Assembly (NCBI GenBank): GCA_019637095.1
Contig: JAHBWG010000058.1
Coordinates: forward strand, 1 to 61,900
Direction: 5' to 3'
Length of the DNA stretch: 61,900 nucleotides
Source: Sandaracinaceae bacterium
GTDB taxonomy: Bacteria > Myxococcota_A > Polyangia > Polyangiales > Sandaracinaceae
The number at the start of each line of letters is the position of its first letter. Within the stretch, counting starts at the first letter, position 1. Below, one piece after another: positions 38,928 through 54,028 of the stretch. The notes under the pieces are model-generated. The model was not told where the DNA came from. It saw only the letters and a program-made list of their open reading frames with translations, and ran no database searches. A program made the position numbers and the translations under genes.

Positions 38928-39758
38928 ATGCGGCTCGAGGAGGTGGCTGACGAGGGGCAGAACCGCCGCTTCCGCGTGCTCCTCGCGGACGGAGCGAGCG
39001 TCGAGGCCGTCCTCTACCGCGGCGACAGCCTGTGCATCTCCTCGCAGGTCGGCTGCGCGGTCGGCTGCCCGTTCTGCGCCTCGGGCGCGCGCGGGCTCTC
39101 GCGCTCGCTCACCCTCGAGGAGCTGCTCGGCCAGCTCGACGCGGTGCGCGCAGAGGGCCACGCGGTCTCGCGCGTGACCGTCAGCGGCGTCGGCGAGCCG
39201 CTCCACTGCCGCGCGGTGCTCCCCTTCCTCGACGCGTGCCGCGCCGCGCGCATCAAGCCGAGCCTCACGACGAGCGGCGGTCCGCTCGCGCGCCTGCGCG
39301 AGGCGATCGGGGCGCCGCACAACGGGCTCACCGTCTCGGTGCACGCGGGCACCGAGCCCGCGCGCGCGCTCGCGGTGCCGCACGGGCCCGCGCTCGCGCC
39401 GCTGTTCGACGTGCTCGGCGAGGAGGTCCCGCGCCTGAGCCGCTCGCGGCAGCGCAAGGTCGCGCTCGCGTACCTCTTGGTCGAGGGCCTGAACGACGCG
39501 GACGCCGAGCTCGACGCGTTCGCCGCGCGCGCGGCGCGGCTCGGGCTCTGGACGCACCTCTACGCCTACAACCCGGTGCCGACGAGCGCGCACCGCCCCG
39601 TCTCGCGCGCCCGCTACGAGGCCGCGTACGCGCGGCTGAGCGCCGCGGGCCTGCGCGTGCGCATGAGCTGCCAGGCGCGCGTCGAGCCCAACGGTGGGTG
39701 CGGCACGCTCGTCGCGACGCGCCGGCTCGTTGACACCGATCCGCGGGCGAGGCACTAG
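38928..39758 (+). CDS. short RlmN/Cfr-like radical SAM enzyme
   Basis: A 276-residue radical SAM protein of the RlmN/Cfr type, whose members methylate adenine in RNA. The SAM cluster triad is CAVGCPFC (Cys43, 47, 50). The resolving cysteine seven residues earlier is present (Cys36 in SLCISSQVGC), as is the C-terminal methyl-carrier-like cysteine (Cys258 in PNGGCGTL). It lacks the roughly 90-residue N-terminal RNA-binding domain of true RlmN, so the substrate may be different. GAGAGG lies shortly before the ATG. Ten bases separate it from tolQ, implying one transcript. Confidence 0.88.
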   Translation: MRLEEVADEGQNRRFRVLLADGASVEAVLYRGDSLCISSQVGCAVGCPFCASGARGLSRSLTLEELLGQLDAVRAEGHAVSRVTVSGVGEPLHCRAVLPFLDACRAARIKPSLTTSGGPLARLREAIGAPHNGLTVSVHAGTEPARALAVPHGPALAPLFDVLGEEVPRLSRSRQRKVALAYLLVEGLNDADAELDAFAARAARLGLWTHLYAYNPVPTSAHRPVSRARYEAAYARLSAAGLRVRMSCQARVEPNGGCGTLVATRRLVDTDPRARH

Positions 39759-43067: not shown

Positions 43068-43619
43068 TCAGCGGCGCAGGCTGCGGCACGCCGCGACGGC
43101 GGCGCTCTGTTGCTCGGCGCTCGAGACGGTGGTCGTGCACATGTACGCGGTGCCGCCGATCTCGCGCCGCGCGGTGACGAAGTAGTTCGTGCCCATGCCG
43201 CCGGTGTTCTCGTACGTGAGGACCCAGCCGTCGGCGAGCGTCTCTTCGCGGAGGTTCTGGGGGGTGAAGAGGTCGGCCTCGGTGCGCGCCGCGGCGAGCG
43301 TCGCGGGGCTCGCCGCGTTGGCCGCCTCGACCGAGACGACGAGGCCGACGCCGCTGATCATCTGCGAGCCCAAGAGCTCGGTGACGCTCGAGCCGGCGGG
43401 CGCGTCGACGCGGAGGTTCAGCGCGGGGATCGCGAGCTCGGCCGGGGCCGGCGGAGTGGGCTCGGCGACGGCGGCCGCGAGGTCTGCGAGCCCGAACGGG
43501 TCGTCGTTGCGCGCCTCGTCGCCGTCGCTCCCACCGCAGGCCACGAGGGCCGCGAGGCAAGCGGCGGAGGCGAGCTGGGCGAGCGCGATGCGGAGCGGCG
43601 AGCGGTGGGTTCGGTGCAT
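43068..43619 (-). CDS. putative lipoprotein
   Basis: A 183-residue protein starting at the ATG at 43619, preceded by AGGAGACG. The leader (HRSPLRIALAQLASAACLAALVACGG) carries a lipobox. After an acidic/Ala/Pro linker the mature domain (about 70-183) has TPQNLREETLADGWVLTYEN and a Cys pair near the C-terminus (YMCTTTV ... AVAACRSLRR) that may close the fold. I do not recognise the family, though such domains are common in myxobacterial paralogue sets. It lies beside the tandem dispersed repeats. Confidence 0.8.
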   Translation of the reverse strand: MHRTHRSPLRIALAQLASAACLAALVACGGSDGDEARNDDPFGLADLAAAVAEPTPPAPAELAIPALNLRVDAPAGSSVTELLGSQMISGVGLVVSVEAANAASPATLAAARTEADLFTPQNLREETLADGWVLTYENTGGMGTNYFVTARREIGGTAYMCTTTVSSAEQQSAAVAACRSLRR

Positions 43620-43745
43620 GGGTCTTTCGTCTCCTGTGCTTCGATGCCCGCGACGTGCGGGTCGACGCCAGACCCTCGCAGCACGCGCGCCGCCCCGCGG
43701 TTCCGGCGGCGCGAGGCTCACGTCCCATCGGCTCGCGCGCGATGT

Positions 43746-43759
43746 CCCGCCTTCGCGGG
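43746..43759. repeat. short REP-like hairpin
   Basis: CCCGC-CTTC-GCGGG is a perfect 5-bp hairpin with a tetraloop, followed by GCCGG...CCGGC-rich sequence. It resembles the many intergenic hairpins of high-GC proteobacteria. Only this copy was noticed. Confidence 0.35.
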
Positions 43760-43827
43760 GCCGGTGTCCCGGCGCCCGACGCTCACGGCGAATCCGTCGC
43801 GGCGCAGCGTTCGTGGGACCGGCGCGC

Positions 43828-46800
43828 TCAGGGCCGGAGCGCGCGGGCGAGGAGCTCGGCGTCCGCGAGGGCGGTGTCGAGCGCGGGCGCGACGGCGAGG
43901 GCGCCGTTCGCGAACGCGCGCACGCGGACGCCGCGGGCGAGGAGCGCGTCTGCGTCGGCGCCGGCGGTGATGACGCGGTAGAGCCCGAGGCCGCGGGCGG
44001 TGACGCCGGCGAGCGCGGCGTCGAGCGCGGCGCTCGCGGCAGCGACGTCGAGGTGGCGCGCCGCGCGGAGCTGGTGGTGCATCTGCACGAGGCTCAGCTC
44101 GTCGCCGTCCCACGTGCTCACGAGCGTGAAGGGCGCGGCGACGCGGTAGCGCTCGTTCGTGTGGACGAAGCCCGCCTGGCCGCCCGTCCACCAGATCATC
44201 ACGTCGGGCTCGACGCCCAGCTCCCGGTACGCGAAGGCGCCGAGGCCGGAGCGGTAGTAGGCGCTCGCCGTCTCGACGAGGACGAGCGGCACGCCGGTCT
44301 GTACGCGCAGCGCCGCGAGCGCGGGCCAGAACGCGGCGGGCACGACGCGGCCGGTGCGCTCCTGGACCGGCTCGAGGTAGAGGCCGAGCACGCGCTCGGG
44401 CGCCGCGCCGATCGCCTCGCGCAGCGCGCGCACGCTCGCGTCGAGGTCGTCCGCCGGGTGCGGCACGCGCGGCCAGTCGAAGTACGGCGCGCCCGCGCGG
44501 TGCGTCGACGGATCGCTGATGGAGCGCGCCGCGGCGGTGGTGTGCCCGACGTACGTACCCGCGAACGAGATGACGGTGTCGGCGGCCTTGCGGTGCCAGC
44601 GCAGCGCGCGGATCGACTTGTCGACCGTCTCGTCGCGGCTCGAGCAGAGGTACGCGTGCGGCAGGCCGGGCGTGAGCGCGGCGACCCACTCGGTCGCGCG
44701 CACGGCCGCGGGCGTGAGGTAGTTCAGGAGCGTGACCTTGTTCACCGCGGGCCCGAAGAGCGCGCCCGCGTCGCGCAGCGCGGCGAGCGAGGCGGGCGGC
44801 GCGGCGAGCGGGCGCGCGAGGCCGTCGGCGAGGTCGCACGCGGGCGCGTCCTTCGCCTCGGGCGCGCGCACCGGGTCGACGACGAACGCGCCGAGCGGCT
44901 GGCGGTAGTAGCGCGCGACGCCCACGCCCTCGTACGCGCGCTCGATCCGCGCGACGGTGTAGGCGCCGAGCGAGTCGTTGAGCTTCGCCATCGCCGAGGC
45001 GTCGGGCAGGCGGTTGCGGCCGCTCGCGTGGCGGTAGCGCGGCGTCCCGTCCGGCCGCGTCATCGCGCGCGCCCGATCGAGCAGCGCGCGCTTGAGCGCG
45101 CGGCCGATCCCGTGGCCGTGGAGCGCGGGCTCGACGGTGACCGCGAGCGAGTAGAGCGTGTTGTCCTGGCCGAGCATCGGGTCGCGATCCGGGCCCTCGA
45201 CGTCCGCGACGCGCTCGAGCGGCGTCCCGAGCGCGGAGCCGATCACGCGCCCGTCGGGCGTCTCGGCGACGATCGCGACGCCGTCGGCCTCGAAGCCCTT
45301 CTTGAGGTGTTCGGGCTCGTCGCGACGCGCGGGCTCGTAGGTGCGCGCCTCGATCGCGAGGATCGCCGGCAAGAGCGCGTCGGCCTCCTCGGGCGCGGCG
45401 ACGCGCAGCGCGACCTCGGGCGCGTCCGCGCGCGGCGCGCTCGCGGGCGCGGGGAAGTCTTCCCATGCCGGCGGCCTCTTGCCCGGGTGCGCCTCGATCC
45501 ACGCGAGCGAGCGCTGCATCGTCTCGAACACGAGGTCGATCGCGGCCTCGTCGAACGCGCGGCTCAGGCGGTAGCGCGCCGTCCGCGTGCCTGCGGCGAA
45601 CACCACGGCGCCGCGCCAGAAGCGCTGGTCGAGGAACGCGTTGAGGGTGGCCGCGTCGGGCAGCTCGAACGCGATCGCGTAGCCCTCCGCGCGCGGCCGC
45701 TCGACGAGGTGCGGCCAGCGCGCGGCGAGCGCGCGGAGGCGCGGGAGGACGAGCGCCTCGACGCGGGCCGCGTCGGACGGATCGACGGTGAGCGCGTGCA
45801 GCCGCCCGCGCGCGAGCGACGCGGGGAACGCGCTCGTCGGCTCGGGGTCCGCGAAGCGGCTGAGCACCACGCCGACCTGCGCGCGCTTGGCGAGGCACAC
45901 GCAGTCGGGCACGTCGGGCGCGCCCGTCGCGTCCACGTAGCCGAAGCGCTGGTGCCAGAAGAACGGGCCGCTCAGGCCGAGCCCGCACTGCACCTCGTCG
46001 ACGATGAGCGAGACGCCGTGGTGCCGGGTCAAGAGGCGCAGCGCCCGGTGGAAGCGCGCGCCGAGGTAGCGGTCGCCGCCCTCCGACTGCATCGGCTCGA
46101 TCGTCACCGCGAAGTACCCGCCCGCGCCGAGGGCCTCGTCGACGCGCGCGAGCGCCTCGATCTCGGCGGCGAGCAGCGCGTCGCCACGGAAGCGCGCGCG
46201 CGCCGCCGCGACGTCGCCCGCGCCCCACACCTCGACCCAGCCGGCGGGCTCGACCGGCTCGCCAGGAGCGTCCTCGACGACCGGCGCGGCGACGAACTCC
46301 ACCTCGTAGCCGGCGATCTGGAACGGGACGCGCTTGGACGGGTTGTGCGTCGCGTAGAGCGCGAGCAGCGTGCGGCCGTGGAAGCACCCCTCGAACGCGA
46401 GGAGCTTCTTGGCCCCCGGCGCCGCGTTCGCGAGGCAGAGCGCGTACGCCTTCTCGTTGGCCTCCGCGCCCGCGTTGACGAAGCTGACGGTGGAGAGGCC
46501 CGGCGCGCGCGCGCGCAAGAGCGCGGTGAACGCGTCCGCGTGCGGGTCGTCGCCGAGCGCGGTGTCGTGGCTCGTGGTGAGCGCGTCGCCGAGCTCACCC
46601 TCGACGTACGCCTTCACGACCTCGTCGGGCGAGAAGCCGGCGGGGAGCGTCGCGGTCTGGCTCATCGCGTCGAGCACCGAGAGCGGCGTCTCGTCGATCG
46701 AGACCATCCACGGCCCGACGCTGCGCAGGTGATCGAAGAGCGGCGGCTTCTTCTCGCCGGTGACGTAGCGGTCGCCCGCGTGGAAGCGCTCGAGCCACGC

Positions 46801-48405
46801 GGCGCTCTGGGGCAGCGCCCCGCCGGCCGGGAAGCGAAGGCCCAGCGGCCGCGGCGCGTCGAGCAAGGTACGACGCGCCTCCTCGCGCTCCTCGCGCGCG
46901 TGCCGCGCCTCGAGCGCGTCGAGGTCTGCGTCGGGCAAGAGCCGCTCGATCTGCGCGTGCCGCTCGTACACCCCGGCGGGGTTGTGGATCTCTGCGAGCG
47001 GGTAACACAAGTTGCGCGCCGCCCACGCGCCCGCCGGCCGGAAGTTCCCGCTTCGCTTGATGCCGCCGAAGGGCAGGCGCGGGCTCGCCTTGTTCGTGCT
47101 GCGGTTGCGGTTGAGGATCCCCGTCTCGACCTCGCGCTCGTAGCGCGCGAACGCCGCGAGGTCCTCGGTGAACACCGCGTGCGCGAACCCGTACGGCGTG
47201 CCGTTGAGCGCCGCGATCGCCTCCGCGTCGTCCTCGAACGTCTCGACGCACAGGTCCGGGCCGAAGAGCTCGTGGTCGGTGTAGCCGGCGAGCTCGTGCT
47301 TGCCTCGCGCGAGCCGGTGGAGCGAGGGCATGACGAACGCGCCGCCCGGGCGCGCGCCGCCCTCGACGATCGGCTCGGCGCCCCCCGCGCGCGCCCGCTC
47401 GATCGCGGCGAGGAAACCTTCCTGCGCTCGCGCGCTCGCCATCGGCCCGGCGAACGCGCGCGGGTCCTCGGGGTCGCCGAACACGAGCCCCGCGAGCACC
47501 TCGCGCAGCGCGCCGACGAAGCGGTCGGCGAGCCGCGCGTGCACGAGCACGCGATCGGCGCACGTGCAGCGTTGTCCGGTGGACAGGTAGCCGCTCGTGA
47601 CCACCTCGTGCACCGCCTGGCGCAGGTCCGCGTCCTCTCGCACGACGCACATGTTCTTGCCCCCCATCTCGAGCGCGAGGAGCAGCTCCGGCCTCTCGAG
47701 GGTCGCCTCGAGCAGGCGGCGCCCGGTCGGCCACGAGCCGGTGAACGCCAGCCCGCGCACGCGCGGATCGCGCGCGAGCGCCGCCCCGACCGCGCCGCCG
47801 CCCTGCACCACGTTCAGCACGCCGGGCGGCAGCCCCGCCGCGTCGATCGCCTCGGCGTAGCGCTGCCCCGCGAGCGGCGTGAGCTCGCTCGGCTTCACCA
47901 CCACCGCGTTGCCGAGCAAGAGCGCCGGCACCACGTGCGCGTGGCAGAGGTGCAGCGGGAAGTTGAACGGCCCCAGCACCGCGACCACCCCGTGCGGCCG
48001 GTAGCGCACGACCTCGTTGTCGTGCCCGCGCACCGGCCCGCCCGCGAGCTCCGCGCGCACGCCCGCTTCGACGAGCGCGAAGCGCGCGAGCAGCGCCGAG
48101 ACCTCCGCGCGCGCCTCGGAGCGCAGCTTGCCCATCTCGAGCGTGATCGCCTCGCTCAGCCCGTCGGCGCGCGCCTCGATCGCCGCGCGCAGCCGCCCGA
48201 GCGCCGCGGCGCGCTCGTCGAGCGAGCGCGCGCTCCACGCCGGCCACGCCGCCGCCGCCGCCTCGCAGGCCGCCGCCGCGCGCGCCGGATCGCCCGCGGT
48301 GGCGAGCACCACGCGGTGCTCGTGCGCCGGATCGTGGCTGGAGAAGGCCTCACCCGAGGGCGAGTGGAACGTGCCGCCGTAGTAGTCGCCGCGCGCTTCG
48401 TGCAT
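43828..48405 (-). CDS. ALDH-aminotransferase-GNAT-aminotransferase fusion
   Basis: A 1525-residue protein of four enzyme modules. Residues 1-480 are an aldehyde dehydrogenase close to AstD (GPFNFP with Asn148, Glu246 in LEMGGKN, Cys280 in TGQRCTC). Residues 545-985 are a class III aminotransferase with Asp803 (IVDEVQCG) and the PLP lysine Lys840 (CVCLAKRAQ). Residues 998-1175 are a GNAT acyltransferase (VEPALHGHGIGRALKR). Residues 1205-1525 are a second class III aminotransferase fold, but with ETASAY where DEVQ is expected and IWWTGGQ where the PLP lysine belongs, so it is probably inactive. The set of activities mirrors the AstA/AstC/AstD logic: acylate, transaminate, oxidise. Substrate likely an omega-amino acid such as ornithine or lysine. 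Confidence 0.88.
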   Translation of the reverse strand: MHEARGDYYGGTFHSPSGEAFSSHDPAHEHRVVLATAGDPARAAAACEAAAAAWPAWSARSLDERAAALGRLRAAIEARADGLSEAITLEMGKLRSEARAEVSALLARFALVEAGVRAELAGGPVRGHDNEVVRYRPHGVVAVLGPFNFPLHLCHAHVVPALLLGNAVVVKPSELTPLAGQRYAEAIDAAGLPPGVLNVVQGGGAVGAALARDPRVRGLAFTGSWPTGRRLLEATLERPELLLALEMGGKNMCVVREDADLRQAVHEVVTSGYLSTGQRCTCADRVLVHARLADRFVGALREVLAGLVFGDPEDPRAFAGPMASARAQEGFLAAIERARAGGAEPIVEGGARPGGAFVMPSLHRLARGKHELAGYTDHELFGPDLCVETFEDDAEAIAALNGTPYGFAHAVFTEDLAAFARYEREVETGILNRNRSTNKASPRLPFGGIKRSGNFRPAGAWAARNLCYPLAEIHNPAGVYERHAQIERLLPDADLDALEARHAREEREEARRTLLDAPRPLGLRFPAGGALPQSAAWLERFHAGDRYVTGEKKPPLFDHLRSVGPWMVSIDETPLSVLDAMSQTATLPAGFSPDEVVKAYVEGELGDALTTSHDTALGDDPHADAFTALLRARAPGLSTVSFVNAGAEANEKAYALCLANAAPGAKKLLAFEGCFHGRTLLALYATHNPSKRVPFQIAGYEVEFVAAPVVEDAPGEPVEPAGWVEVWGAGDVAAARARFRGDALLAAEIEALARVDEALGAGGYFAVTIEPMQSEGGDRYLGARFHRALRLLTRHHGVSLIVDEVQCGLGLSGPFFWHQRFGYVDATGAPDVPDCVCLAKRAQVGVVLSRFADPEPTSAFPASLARGRLHALTVDPSDAARVEALVLPRLRALAARWPHLVERPRAEGYAIAFELPDAATLNAFLDQRFWRGAVVFAAGTRTARYRLSRAFDEAAIDLVFETMQRSLAWIEAHPGKRPPAWEDFPAPASAPRADAPEVALRVAAPEEADALLPAILAIEARTYEPARRDEPEHLKKGFEADGVAIVAETPDGRVIGSALGTPLERVADVEGPDRDPMLGQDNTLYSLAVTVEPALHGHGIGRALKRALLDRARAMTRPDGTPRYRHASGRNRLPDASAMAKLNDSLGAYTVARIERAYEGVGVARYYRQPLGAFVVDPVRAPEAKDAPACDLADGLARPLAAPPASLAALRDAGALFGPAVNKVTLLNYLTPAAVRATEWVAALTPGLPHAYLCSSRDETVDKSIRALRWHRKAADTVISFAGTYVGHTTAAARSISDPSTHRAGAPYFDWPRVPHPADDLDASVRALREAIGAAPERVLGLYLEPVQERTGRVVPAAFWPALAALRVQTGVPLVLVETASAYYRSGLGAFAYRELGVEPDVMIWWTGGQAGFVHTNERYRVAAPFTLVSTWDGDELSLVQMHHQLRAARHLDVAAASAALDAALAGVTARGLGLYRVITAGADADALLARGVRVRAFANGALAVAPALDTALADAELLARALRP

Positions 48406-48446
48406 GGGGGCGCGGAGGATAGCAGCGCCCGCGCCGCAGGCAGGTG

Positions 48447-48473
48447 GGGACGATCCTCGTCATCTCGTCATTC
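48447..48473 (+). repeat. dispersed 27-bp repeat, copy 6
   Basis: Identical to copy 1, including the following GCC. It lies between the start of the four-domain gene and the end of the secreted-protein gene. Confidence 0.9.
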
Positions 48474-48506
48474 GCCGCCCGCGTCGAGGCGGATGACGCA
48501 GGTGGC

Positions 48507-48986
48507 TCAGCCCTCCCTCCATTGCACGGCGAGCAGGAGGTTGCGGCCATCCGGGGTGAGGTAGCCGCTCACCGGCCCGGATGGAGGGAAGCGCCGCGAC
48601 GCGCCGCCCCAGTACACCTCCCACACCCACCCCGTGGCGGGGAGCCGCGACGCGTCCCCGGCGAGCGCCGTCGACAGCGCGAGGGAGCGGCGCGCCTCGC
48701 CGACCTCGACGCGCCGCACGACGAAGTGCGCGTAGCCCTCCATGCACTCGGCGTACGCCCGGAGCACCGCGTCGCGGTGGCGGATGCCGCGGTAGGCGGC
48801 CCGGAAGCGGTCGACGAAGCGCCGCGCCTCCTCGGGGCTCGGCGGCGCGGTCGGCGCCGCGCCGATCGGATCGCCCGGAGCCGGCCACGTCGAGGGCTCG
48901 ACCGGGCGCTCGCAGTGGGGAGGCTGCGCCGCCGCCGCGCCCGCGGACGCGGCCACCAGGAGCAGGGCGAGCTGCGTCCGTCTCAT
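48507..48986 (-). CDS. secreted protein of unknown function
   Basis: A 159-residue protein with a signal peptide (MRRTQLALLLVAASAGAAAA, cleaved before QPPHC). The mature part has two cysteines (HCERP and AECMEG), a helical stretch (SPEEARRFVDRFRAAYRGIRHRDAVL) and a beta C-terminus (TGWVWEVYWGGASRRFPPSG ... LLLAVQWREG). It recalls small PepSY-like or DUF periplasmic domains, but no family can be named. It stands alone between a dispersed repeat and the GGDEF gene. Confidence 0.72.
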   Translation of the reverse strand: MRRTQLALLLVAASAGAAAAQPPHCERPVEPSTWPAPGDPIGAAPTAPPSPEEARRFVDRFRAAYRGIRHRDAVLRAYAECMEGYAHFVVRRVEVGEARRSLALSTALAGDASRLPATGWVWEVYWGGASRRFPPSGPVSGYLTPDGRNLLLAVQWREG

Positions 48987-49064: not shown

Positions 49065-50522
49065 TCACCCCCCGGCGGCGGCGGCGCGCTCTTCGCGCGC
49101 GACGGCGACGCGGTCGCGACCGGCGCGCTTGGCCTCGTAGAGCGCGGCGTCCGCGCGCGCGAGCAGCTCGGCGCGCGCCTCGCCGGCGCGCCGGGCGGCG
49201 ACGCCGACGCTCACCGAGAAGCGCCCGAGCGGCTGGTCCGCGGCGCCCTTCACCGCGAGGCGCGCGACCTCCGCGCGCAGCTTCTCCGCGACGTCGGCCG
49301 CCGCGCGCAGCGGCGTCTGCGGCAAGAGCACCCAGAGCTCTTCGCCGCCGACGCGCGCGACGGTGTCGACCTCGCGCGTGTGCTCCTCGAGCGTGGCCGC
49401 GAGCGCGACGAGCGCGGCGTCGCCCGCCGCGTGGCCGTGCGTGTCGTTGAGGTGCTTGAAGTGATCGATGTCGAGCGCGAGCACGCTCAGCTCCTGCCCG
49501 TAGCGGTCCGAGTACGCGAGCGCGCGGTCGAGCCGCCGCTCGAAGAGGCGCCGGTTCGGCAGGCCCGTCAGCTCGTCGTGCGTCGCGAGCTCCTCGAGCT
49601 GCTTCACGAGCTGCGCGTTGTGGATCGCGAGCGCGGCTTGGTCCGCGACCGCCTCCAGGTAGTGCGCGGTCATCTCGTTGAGCGGGTCCTCCTCCGGCCG
49701 CGTCAGCACGAGCATCCCGATCTCCTCGTCGACGTGCCGGATCGGGATCGCCGCGAACGAGCCGGTGCGCGGGAGCTCGTCCCAGAAGTCGACCGCGCGC
49801 GGGATGCGCGTGACGTCGGGGACGACCATCGCGCCGTGATCGAGCGCCCACGGCCCGCGGCTCGGCGTCGCGATGGTGCGGCCGACCGGCGAGCCGTCGA
49901 AGCCCCACGCCGCGCGCACCTCGAGCCCGTCGCCCGGCGTCGTCAGCAGCACCGCGAGCCGGTTCGCGCGCAGCGCGGGCCCGATGCGGGTGACGAGCAC
50001 GTCGAGCACCGCGTCGAGGTCGTGGCTCGACGCGCTCTCGCGCAGCACCTCGAACAAGAGCGCGCGCTCACGCAGGCGCAGCTCGAGCTCGCGCTGGCTG
50101 ATCGCGAGCTCCTCGGCGAGCGCGAGCTCGCGCTCCTTGGCGGCGAGCTGCCGCTGTCCGTCGATCACGTCGCCTTGCAGCGTGGTGACGCGCGCGAGCA
50201 CGCGGTTGAACGACGCGGCGATGCGGCCCACCTCGTCGTCGCCCATCTCGGGCAACCGCCGGAGGTAGTCCTGATCCGCGGCGCGTCCGTCGAGCGCCTT
50301 GGCGAGGGTGGCGAGCCGCGCGCCGAACGCGCGGCGCACGACGAGGCCCGCGGCGAGGCCGCCGCCGAGCCCGGACGCGATCGACGCGAGCCACCACCAC
50401 GGCTCGAGCGAGGCGCCGCCGCGCGCGAGGTACACGACGCCCTGCACGACGGCGCCGGTCGCCGCGCCGGCGACCAGCGCCGCGAGCGCGACGCGGAGGG
50501 CCGCCTTTCGGAACGCGGACAT
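49065..50522 (-). CDS. membrane-bound diguanylate cyclase (HAMP-GAF-GGDEF)
   Basis: A 485-residue protein. Two membrane helices (about 8-30 and 40-62) are followed by a HAMP-like stretch (RRLPEMGDDEVGRIAASFNRVL), a coiled coil, a GAF domain (about 165-315, LDAVLDVLVTRIGPALRANRLAVLL) and a C-terminal GGDEF domain. The active loop reads ARVGGEELWV (near 390), and GGEEL is an accepted functional variant. An upstream RxxD inhibitory site is not obvious. There is no EAL domain. It should make cyclic di-GMP in response to a membrane or GAF-bound signal. It lies just downstream of the tRNA gene and its hairpin. Confidence 0.93.
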   Translation of the reverse strand: MSAFRKAALRVALAALVAGAATGAVVQGVVYLARGGASLEPWWWLASIASGLGGGLAAGLVVRRAFGARLATLAKALDGRAADQDYLRRLPEMGDDEVGRIAASFNRVLARVTTLQGDVIDGQRQLAAKERELALAEELAISQRELELRLRERALLFEVLRESASSHDLDAVLDVLVTRIGPALRANRLAVLLTTPGDGLEVRAAWGFDGSPVGRTIATPSRGPWALDHGAMVVPDVTRIPRAVDFWDELPRTGSFAAIPIRHVDEEIGMLVLTRPEEDPLNEMTAHYLEAVADQAALAIHNAQLVKQLEELATHDELTGLPNRRLFERRLDRALAYSDRYGQELSVLALDIDHFKHLNDTHGHAAGDAALVALAATLEEHTREVDTVARVGGEELWVLLPQTPLRAAADVAEKLRAEVARLAVKGAADQPLGRFSVSVGVAARRAGEARAELLARADAALYEAKRAGRDRVAVAREERAAAAGG

Positions 50523-52458: not shown

Positions 52459-53025
52459 GTGCGCATCGAGATCATCACGCCGTGCGAGGAGCCCTGGGAG
52501 TCGATGGAGCCGCGCGACGGCGGTCGCTACTGCGGCCGCTGCGAGAAGGTCGTCCTCGATCTGTCCGTCCTGAGCCGCGCGCAGGCGGAGGCGAAGCTGC
52601 GCGCGCTCCGCGCCGCCGGGGCCAAGGACGCGTGCGTGCAGCTCGCGGTGGATCGCTTCGGCGACGCGGTGTTCTCGCGCCCGCCGCCGCGTCGCGCGCC
52701 GCACTGGGCCGCGGGCCTCGTGCTGGTCTCCGCGCTGAGCGCAGGGTGTCGCGGCGAGGACGCGCCGAGCGAGCCCGCCCTCGGCGCGCTCGTCCCCGAC
52801 CCCGGCGCGCCGATGCGGCCCGCGGAGATCGCCGTCGCCAGCGTCCCCGCGCCGACGTCGCGCGCCGTCCCGGCGAGCGAGCTCGTCTCCGCACCCGCGG
52901 AGGCGACCGCGGCGCAGCGCGCGCTCACCGCCGCCAAGCACGCGCCGCCCCCGCCGCCGCCGTCGTACACGCCCACGCCGACGATCCACCACATGCGCGG
53001 CGGCCTCTCGCTGAACTGGCCGTAG
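52459..53025 (+). CDS. zinc-ribbon-like protein with hydrophobic segment, paralogue 1
   Basis: A 188-residue protein starting at GTG. The N-terminus (about 5-45) is a small Cys motif domain: PCEEPWESM (Cys9), then GGRYCGRCEKVVLDLS (Cys25, Cys28). I recall this domain from many Bacteroidetes and Myxococcota proteins, where it is placed before a membrane anchor. A short hydrophobic stretch (HWAAGLVLVSALSAGC, about 75-95) follows, then a Pro/Ala-rich tail. The second half of a tandem pair lies at 53471. The Cys after the hydrophobic stretch looks like a lipobox, but it is internal. Function unknown. Confidence 0.75.
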   Translation: MRIEIITPCEEPWESMEPRDGGRYCGRCEKVVLDLSVLSRAQAEAKLRALRAAGAKDACVQLAVDRFGDAVFSRPPPRRAPHWAAGLVLVSALSAGCRGEDAPSEPALGALVPDPGAPMRPAEIAVASVPAPTSRAVPASELVSAPAEATAAQRALTAAKHAPPPPPPSYTPTPTIHHMRGGLSLNWP

Positions 53026-53470: not shown

Positions 53471-54028
53471 GTGCATTTCGAGATCACCGACCCGTGTGAG
53501 GAGCCCTGGGACTCGATGGAGCCGCGCGACGGCGGCCGCTACTGCGGGCGCTGCGACAAGGTCGTCGTCGACCTGTCCGTCCTGAGCCGCGCGCAGGCCG
53601 AGGCGAAGATCGGCGCGCTCGACGCGGACGAGGTGTGCGTGCGCCTCGCCGTCGACCGCTTCGGCGACGCGGTCTTCCAGCGCCCGCCGCCGAGCCGCGC
53701 GCCGCACTGGGCCGCCGGGCTCGTCCTCGTCTCCGCGCTGAGCGCGTCCGGCTGCGCGGTCGAGGAGCCGGCGCCGTGCCTCGCCAAGCACGCGCCGATC
53801 ACACCCGATCCCGGCCCGCCGATGATGCCCGCCGCCGTGGTGGCCGTCGCCGAGCCCCAGCCGGTGAGCGGCGCGGTCCCCGCCGATCAGCTCGCCGACG
53901 CCGGCGACGCGCGACCGACCTCGGAGCAGCGCGCGCTCACCGAGGCGAAGCACCGGCCGCCCAGTCACCACATCCACATGGTCGCGGGCCGGATGCCGCT
54001 CCCTCCTCGGCAGCCGACGTTCTTCTGA
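53471..54028 (+). CDS. zinc-ribbon-like protein with hydrophobic segment, paralogue 2
   Basis: A 185-residue protein starting at GTG, clearly paralogous to the protein at 52459. ITDPCEEPWDSMEPRDGG and RYCGRCDKVVVDLSVLSRAQ match almost residue for residue, as do the RFGDAVF, PPP and HWAAGLVLVSALSAS segments. The Pro-rich tails diverge. The near-identity of the first 100 residues against drifting tails suggests a fairly recent duplication with different C-terminal roles. Three Cys (CEEPW, CGRC) likely bind zinc. Function unknown. Confidence 0.75.
   Translation: MHFEITDPCEEPWDSMEPRDGGRYCGRCDKVVVDLSVLSRAQAEAKIGALDADEVCVRLAVDRFGDAVFQRPPPSRAPHWAAGLVLVSALSASGCAVEEPAPCLAKHAPITPDPGPPMMPAAVVAVAEPQPVSGAVPADQLADAGDARPTSEQRALTEAKHRPPSHHIHMVAGRMPLPPRQPTFF

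Follow-up and report, generated by a model that had tools for sequence, protein, structure and literature searches.

The arginine succinyltransferase (AST) enzymes AstA, AstC and AstD of Escherichia coli degrade their substrate in the order acylation, transamination, oxidation and deacylation. Lysine can be degraded via beta-lysine, for which a biochemical precedent exists in the Pseudomonas route that passes through N6-acetyl-beta-lysine, and a related set of genes forms the Bacillus kam/yod operon (kamA, yodP, yodQ, yodR, yodS, yodT). Class-III aminotransferases associate as two equal subunits that make two sites. Lys300 of E. coli PatA binds PLP and Asp271 binds the ring nitrogen of the cofactor, whose phosphate is held by Thr332 from the partner subunit (PMC4244111). 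For B. subtilis YodT and KamA, the roles were called undetermined in 2019 (PMC6522883).

The DNA analyzed here, referred to as the window, is a stretch of 61,900 nucleotides from a Sandaracinaceae bacterium whose genome is a 9.25 Mb draft of 197 contigs, 96% complete. It encodes a large protein, hereafter the megaprotein, in which an aldehyde dehydrogenase (ALDH) domain, two class-III aminotransferase domains (AT1 and AT2) and a GNAT acyltransferase domain follow one another in a single chain. On balance we lean toward the view that it is a multienzyme for the middle part of lysine degradation via beta-lysine, with one composite aminotransferase site.

The four-domain chain and its distribution

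The megaprotein ORF has an ATG start, 1525 codons and zero internal stops. The plus strand opposite carries merely a mechanical GC-rich shadow ORF of 1791 aa (43189-48564). The first-pass annotation had proposed a single chain of 1525 residues with four domains, and Pfam confirms it by Aldedh, Aminotran_3, Acetyltransf_1 and a second Aminotran_3; the minus strand is an addition to that annotation (Table 1). AT1 scores 167.7 bits against a cut-off of 30.5 for PF00202, and AT2 scores 44.9 bits against the same cut-off when the C-terminal piece, i.e. the last 335 residues, is scanned alone. The Acetyltransf_1 match covers residues 1014-1115 with 25.5 bits for a cut-off of 20.7.

Table 1. Features of the megaprotein gene in the window
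Feature	Position	Strand	Basis
Whole four-domain ORF, ALDH-AT1-GNAT-AT2, 1525 aa	43828..48405	-	Pfam; recurrence as a single ORF in relatives
Aldehyde dehydrogenase domain, aa 17-466, AstD-type by sequence; Glu246 and Cys280 (GQRCTC) conserved	47008..48357	-	Pfam Aldedh, 381 bits
AT1, class-III aminotransferase domain, aa 553-965; PLP lysine and PLP-N aspartate kept	45511..46749	-	Pfam Aminotran_3
Lys840 codon, predicted PLP Schiff-base lysine of AT1	45886..45888	-	Invariant, 102/102; aligns with E. coli PatA Lys300
GNAT acyltransferase domain, ~aa 1000-1175, between AT1 and AT2	44881..45408	-	Pfam, AlphaFold2
AT2, degenerate class-III aminotransferase domain, aa 1190-1525, without PLP lysine	43831..44838	-	Pfam and alignment
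Thr1431 codon in STWDGDE, predicted cross-domain PLP-phosphate ligand, from AT2 to AT1	44113..44115	-	101/101 relatives; aligns with E. coli PatA Thr332

That separate genes had been joined by a missed stop or an assembly error, an objection foreseen in the same annotation, is refuted by recurrence across Myxococcota: the four-domain ORF is found at 1530-1600 aa in other genera and families. The megaprotein is not an assembly artefact, since dozens of Myxococcota genomes encode the four domains in the same order within one ORF, among them a genome of the same family assembled as one contig (G290, 10,327,335 bases).

The distribution was followed in two ways. The GNAT region, used as a query without motif bias against 144 genomes of the class, gave matches in 38 of them, many lying inside open frames of 1530-1600 aa. 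When the four domains were mapped on 30 of the matched regions, the order ALDH-AT1-GNAT-AT2 was recovered in families f1 and f16 and AT1-GNAT-AT2 without ALDH in families f3 and f11. A scan of public genome contigs yielded 180 relatives and 78 loci, biased toward the motifs [VI]STWDGDE and EPM[QM][SA]EGG with which it was seeded. These relatives belong to Kofleriaceae, Sandaracinaceae, Nannocystis, Enhygromyxa, Plesiocystis and other Myxococcota; further ones, of 29-33% identity, belong to Bacteriovorax and Bdellovibrio. AT1-GNAT-AT2 occupies one ORF at 73 of the 78 loci, with ALDH fused as well in 35 of these 73. The form without ALDH was found in Nannocystaceae and Bdellovibrionota; the latter resemble f11 in that ALDH is unfused to AT1-GNAT-AT2, and no unfused ALDH was found in f11 at E<1e-95.

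Other arrangements were encountered. Genome G040 encodes an ALDH-GNAT fusion of 685 aa that lacks both aminotransferase halves (L045:9733-11790) and, about 12 kb from it, a C45 amidohydrolase gene (L191:10005-11078); KamA-L, the lysine-2,3-aminomutase homologue discussed below, is absent from this genome. Longer four-domain ORFs (1637-1715 aa) with extended linkers occur in other Myxococcota families (L199, L201), and an isolated GNAT match in G442 (L198), around which no gene was called, was set aside.

The two aminotransferase domains

In AT1 the aspartate D803 is kept, as is the PLP lysine K840, in each of the 102 aligned relatives. The threonine-bearing stretch of AT1 is deleted in every relative that was aligned with E. 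coli AstC, GabT, PatA and PuuE. In AT2 a lysine is missing from the PLP-lysine column in all relatives and the PLP-N aspartate is replaced; STWDGDE is kept in 101/101, the remaining sequence being gapped there. This complementary loss of residues also holds in relatives gathered without motif bias. Because the neighboring domains AT1 and AT2 have lost opposite halves of one site, their sequences indicate that they most likely form a single composite PLP site within the chain. AlphaFold2 modeled residues 530-1525 with a pLDDT of 85 and a pTM of 0.87.

Of the two aminotransferases announced earlier, the two class-III domains stand by Pfam; a second activity does not, AT2 being a lysine-less pseudo-subunit. 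Two independent aminotransferase activities were rejected on the ground that AT2 is without PLP lysine in any homologue. The earlier label of AT1 as AstC-like has to be given up as well. Lysine 6-transaminase ranks first among the NCBIfam models at 103.8 bits, below the curated cut-off of 520.8 bits of this model (TIGR03251), and the eukaryotic GABA aminotransferase (GABA-AT) ranks second at 99.8 bits. The nearest solved fold is the lysine epsilon-aminotransferase (LAT) of Mycobacterium tuberculosis (Z 22.7, rmsd 2.4, 399 residues), followed by acetylornithine (AcOAT) and GABA aminotransferases (Z 21.1-21.2).

The aldehyde dehydrogenase and GNAT domains

Judged by its sequence, the ALDH domain is of the AstD type and not of the succinate-semialdehyde type. 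In the tree a branch with 100/100 support places it with AstD and apart from succinate-semialdehyde dehydrogenase (SSADH), PuuC and PatD, a grouping that bears out its first description as AstD-like. It carries the AstD motifs GQRC and SGNxRP and scores 370 bits with the AstD model TIGR03240, below the curated cut-off of 579.3. The SSADH arginine motifs ITRK and [FY]RNxGQTC are absent from it, R being there in all three SSADHs compared. Its closest plasmid-borne matches are mostly annotated astD.

The GNAT domain was modeled by AlphaFold2 with a GNAT fold (pLDDT 91.7). Its fold neighbors are N-terminal acetyltransferases of the Ard1/RimI type (Z ~18-19) and amino-acid acetyltransferases (Z ~16.5), and are not substrate-diagnostic. 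At E 0.01 none of the NCBIfam models, AblB (beta-lysine N-acetyltransferase AblB/YodP) among them, was matched by the GNAT piece. The domain is not AstA, and with the E. coli protein as query no homologue of AstA was found in the 78 loci.

Gene neighborhoods

Neighboring genes were called by a simple codon-usage script and their starts are approximate. In relatives from both Myxococcota and Bdellovibrionota, the operon order is the megaprotein gene, a C45 amidohydrolase, a class-III aminotransferase (AT) with its own PLP lysine, CoA-transferase A and CoA-transferase B. An uncultured bacterium (L182:387-9187) has AT1-GNAT-AT2, C45, AT, CoA-transferase A, a KamA-type radical SAM enzyme 57% identical to KamA-L, CoA-transferase B and a gene that we take, by eye, to encode a thiolase. 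At a further locus (L032:5692-8112), C45 and the class-III AT are fused in one 806-aa ORF located directly after the AT1-GNAT-AT2 gene. In the genome of the window the parts are scattered: KamA-L lies on contig C123, C45-AT on C194 and the CoA-transferase pair on C66. The CoA-transferase families of the operon span both PcaIJ and ScoAB, and the substrate is not fixed thereby; their best matches on plasmids adjoin acetone-carboxylase-like and other genes and are not decisive between the two. C45 gave one weak match among plasmids.

Other genes were observed in the window around the megaprotein gene. A HAMP-GAF-GGDEF diguanylate cyclase is encoded two genes upstream on the same strand (49065-50522, minus). 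Two neighboring small genes (52459-53025 and 53471-54028) share the near-identical motif CEEPW[ED]SMEPRDGGRYCGRC[ED]KVV, apparently through duplication. A gene on the plus strand (38928-39758) presumably codes for an RlmN-like radical SAM protein, as named by eye.

Association with KamA-L

KamA-L forms a distinct KamA subclade of ~460 aa (L059-L066). The KamA-L of relatives exceeds the subfamily cut-off of the KamA family TIGR00238 (244.8 vs 199.2 bits) and falls short of the equivalog for lysine 2,3-aminomutase, TIGR03820 (259 vs 525 bits). Inspected by eye, it seems to keep the two aspartates (in YxxHD and DAPGGGGK) that bind the lysine epsilon-ammonium in the clostridial enzyme.

Among the 144 genomes, KamA-L (E<1e-90) is present in 36 of the 37 with AT1-GNAT-AT2, the exception being G131, a genome of 86% completeness. 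Within f11 KamA-L occurs in 17/17 genomes that have AT1-GNAT-AT2 vs 1/9 that lack it, and within the taxonomic order to which the window belongs in 4/4 vs 4/20; these counts include sister genomes and are not independent. Co-occurrence with the broad family TIGR00238, which matches nearly every genome, was dropped as uninformative and replaced by that with the KamA-L subclade. About 45 genomes of the class carry KamA-L without the megaprotein, so KamA-L also has other roles. Its location in one relative's operon and its co-occurrence in 36/37 genomes point to beta-lysine as the substrate and make ornithine, suggested by the first reading of the sequence, or arginine unlikely.

Proposed pathway

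KamA-L, encoded elsewhere in the genome, would convert lysine to beta-lysine. The GNAT domain would then acylate the 3-amino group, preventing cyclization in the manner of N-succinylation in the AST pathway. The AT1/AT2 pair would take off the 6-amino group at one PLP site composed of Lys840 from AT1 and Thr1431 from AT2, and the AstD-type ALDH would oxidize the resulting semialdehyde to 3-acylaminoadipate. For this fourth step f11 and Bdellovibrionota, in which no ALDH is fused, would need another ALDH. The C45 amidohydrolase of the relatives' operon would deacylate 3-acylaminoadipate to 3-aminoadipate, from which the free-standing class-III AT of that operon would produce 3-oxoadipate. CoA-transferase A/B and thiolase would finally form the CoA ester of 3-oxoadipate and cleave it to succinyl-CoA and acetyl-CoA.

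The sequences themselves give the domain order, the complementary residue loss of AT1 and AT2, the AstD type of the ALDH, an operon that is conserved, and KamA-L as a linked and co-occurring gene. What we infer is that the composite site physically exists, that beta-lysine is the substrate and N3 the position acylated, which acyl group is used and in what order the steps run. The AST-type logic previously attributed to the protein is kept for acylation, omega-transamination and oxidation, with the C45 amidohydrolase, next in the relatives' operon, as candidate deacylase; an ornithine or arginine substrate for it is unsupported.

Alternative readings

The pathway of Barker in Pseudomonas, on which no paper was found in the open-licence literature, provides an alternative that we regard as unlikely. 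The GNAT domain would acetylate N6 of beta-lysine, the operon AT would form 3-keto-6-acetamidohexanoate, CoA-transferase and thiolase would yield 4-acetamidobutyryl-CoA, and C45 would deacetylate to GABA, for which AT1/AT2 would serve as GABA aminotransferase and ALDH as succinate-semialdehyde dehydrogenase. Such a route employs every operon gene, and AT1 is about as close to eukaryotic GABA-AT as to LAT, their scores being almost equal, which is also a caveat on the AST-like model. Four findings nevertheless favor the AST-like route, although none amounts to proof. Firstly, ALDH is on the AstD side and is missing the arginine motifs that all three SSADHs share. Secondly, the fusions of GNAT, AT1 and ALDH and of C45 and AT (L032) join consecutive steps in the AST-like route only and would join non-consecutive ones in the GABA route. 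Thirdly, the gene order of the operon matches the order of the AST-like steps. Fourthly, the ALDH-GNAT and C45 of G040, accompanied by neither KamA-L nor AT1/AT2, fit a sequence of acylation, oxidation and deacylation. Both gene fusion and gene order are no more than heuristics. The GABA route is further disfavored by the GNAT domain, which is without a match to the AblB model.

The earlier proposal, an AST-like pathway carried by one protein and acting on ornithine, lysine or another alpha-diamino acid, with KamA-L only loosely associated, appears quite improbable. It would agree with the AstD-type ALDH, with the logic of acylation, transamination and oxidation, and with the occurrence in G040 of ALDH-GNAT and C45 without KamA-L. 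However, no AstA homologue accompanies the 78 loci, KamA-L is part of one operon besides being present in nearly all genomes with AT1-GNAT-AT2, and neither N-acylglutamate nor N-acyl-2-aminoadipate suits the downstream AT and 3-oxoacid CoA-transferase, which fit a beta-amino acid.

It is very improbable that the megaprotein is a biosynthetic enzyme, e.g. for an acylated diamino-acid osmolyte or a natural-product building block: GNAT plus aminotransferase does resemble in type the synthesis of ectoine or N-acetyl-beta-lysine, but the relatives' operon is a catabolic set (amidohydrolase, 3-oxoacid CoA-transferase and, in L182, thiolase) and inspection by eye showed neither an ectoine synthase-like gene nor an NRPS/PKS gene beside the megaprotein.

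Novelty and significance

There is, in our estimate, an even chance that the lysine route via beta-lysine set out above constitutes an undescribed aerobic pathway through N3-acyl-beta-lysine, 3-acylaminoadipate, 3-aminoadipate and 3-oxoadipate, its middle steps run by one multienzyme whose aminotransferase is an intrachain pseudo-heterodimer that has one composite PLP site and carries an acyltransferase between its halves. The open-licence literature contained no description that we could find of a protein of this layout or of such a pathway, and nothing relevant on 3-aminoadipate or beta-lysine degradation or on how myxobacteria or Bdellovibrio degrade lysine. The domains themselves are already known; the megaprotein represents AST-like chemistry and a class-III aminotransferase in a new architecture and probably on a new substrate. 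If this is true, lysine would have a further catabolic route, one that connects beta-lysine with the 3-oxoadipate node, in bacteria for which lysine catabolism seems not to have been described. It would also be a natural experiment in enzyme evolution, in which a homodimeric aminotransferase was duplicated within one chain, each copy later lost the residue supplied by the other, and a further enzyme was inserted between the copies.

Comparison with known systems

With the AST enzymes of E. coli the megaprotein system shares the order of chemistry, from acylation to deacylation, and an ALDH that groups with AstD. It differs by gathering in one chain what AST distributes over three, by a GNAT without detectable relation to AstA, by an AT1 nearer to LAT and GABA-AT, by a C45 hydrolase in place of AstE and by its link to a lysine-2,3-aminomutase homologue. 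M. tuberculosis LAT (Rv3290c) and GABA aminotransferase resemble AT1 in fold, PLP-site residues, EGGD motif and omega-amine donor; they are homodimers with two equal sites, in contrast with the one predicted site formed by two unequal domains separated by GNAT. The Bacillus kam/yod operon and Barker's beta-lysine pathway offer a comparable set of aminomutase, GNAT, hydrolase, CoA-transferase pair and class-III AT, but the Bacillus proteins are separate, with neither ALDH fusion nor composite aminotransferase, and the hydrolase belongs to another family. Serine palmitoyltransferase (SPTLC1/SPTLC2) is likewise a pair of PLP fold-type-I partners of which only one has the lysine, although it is from another PLP family, in separate chains and with no GNAT between its halves.
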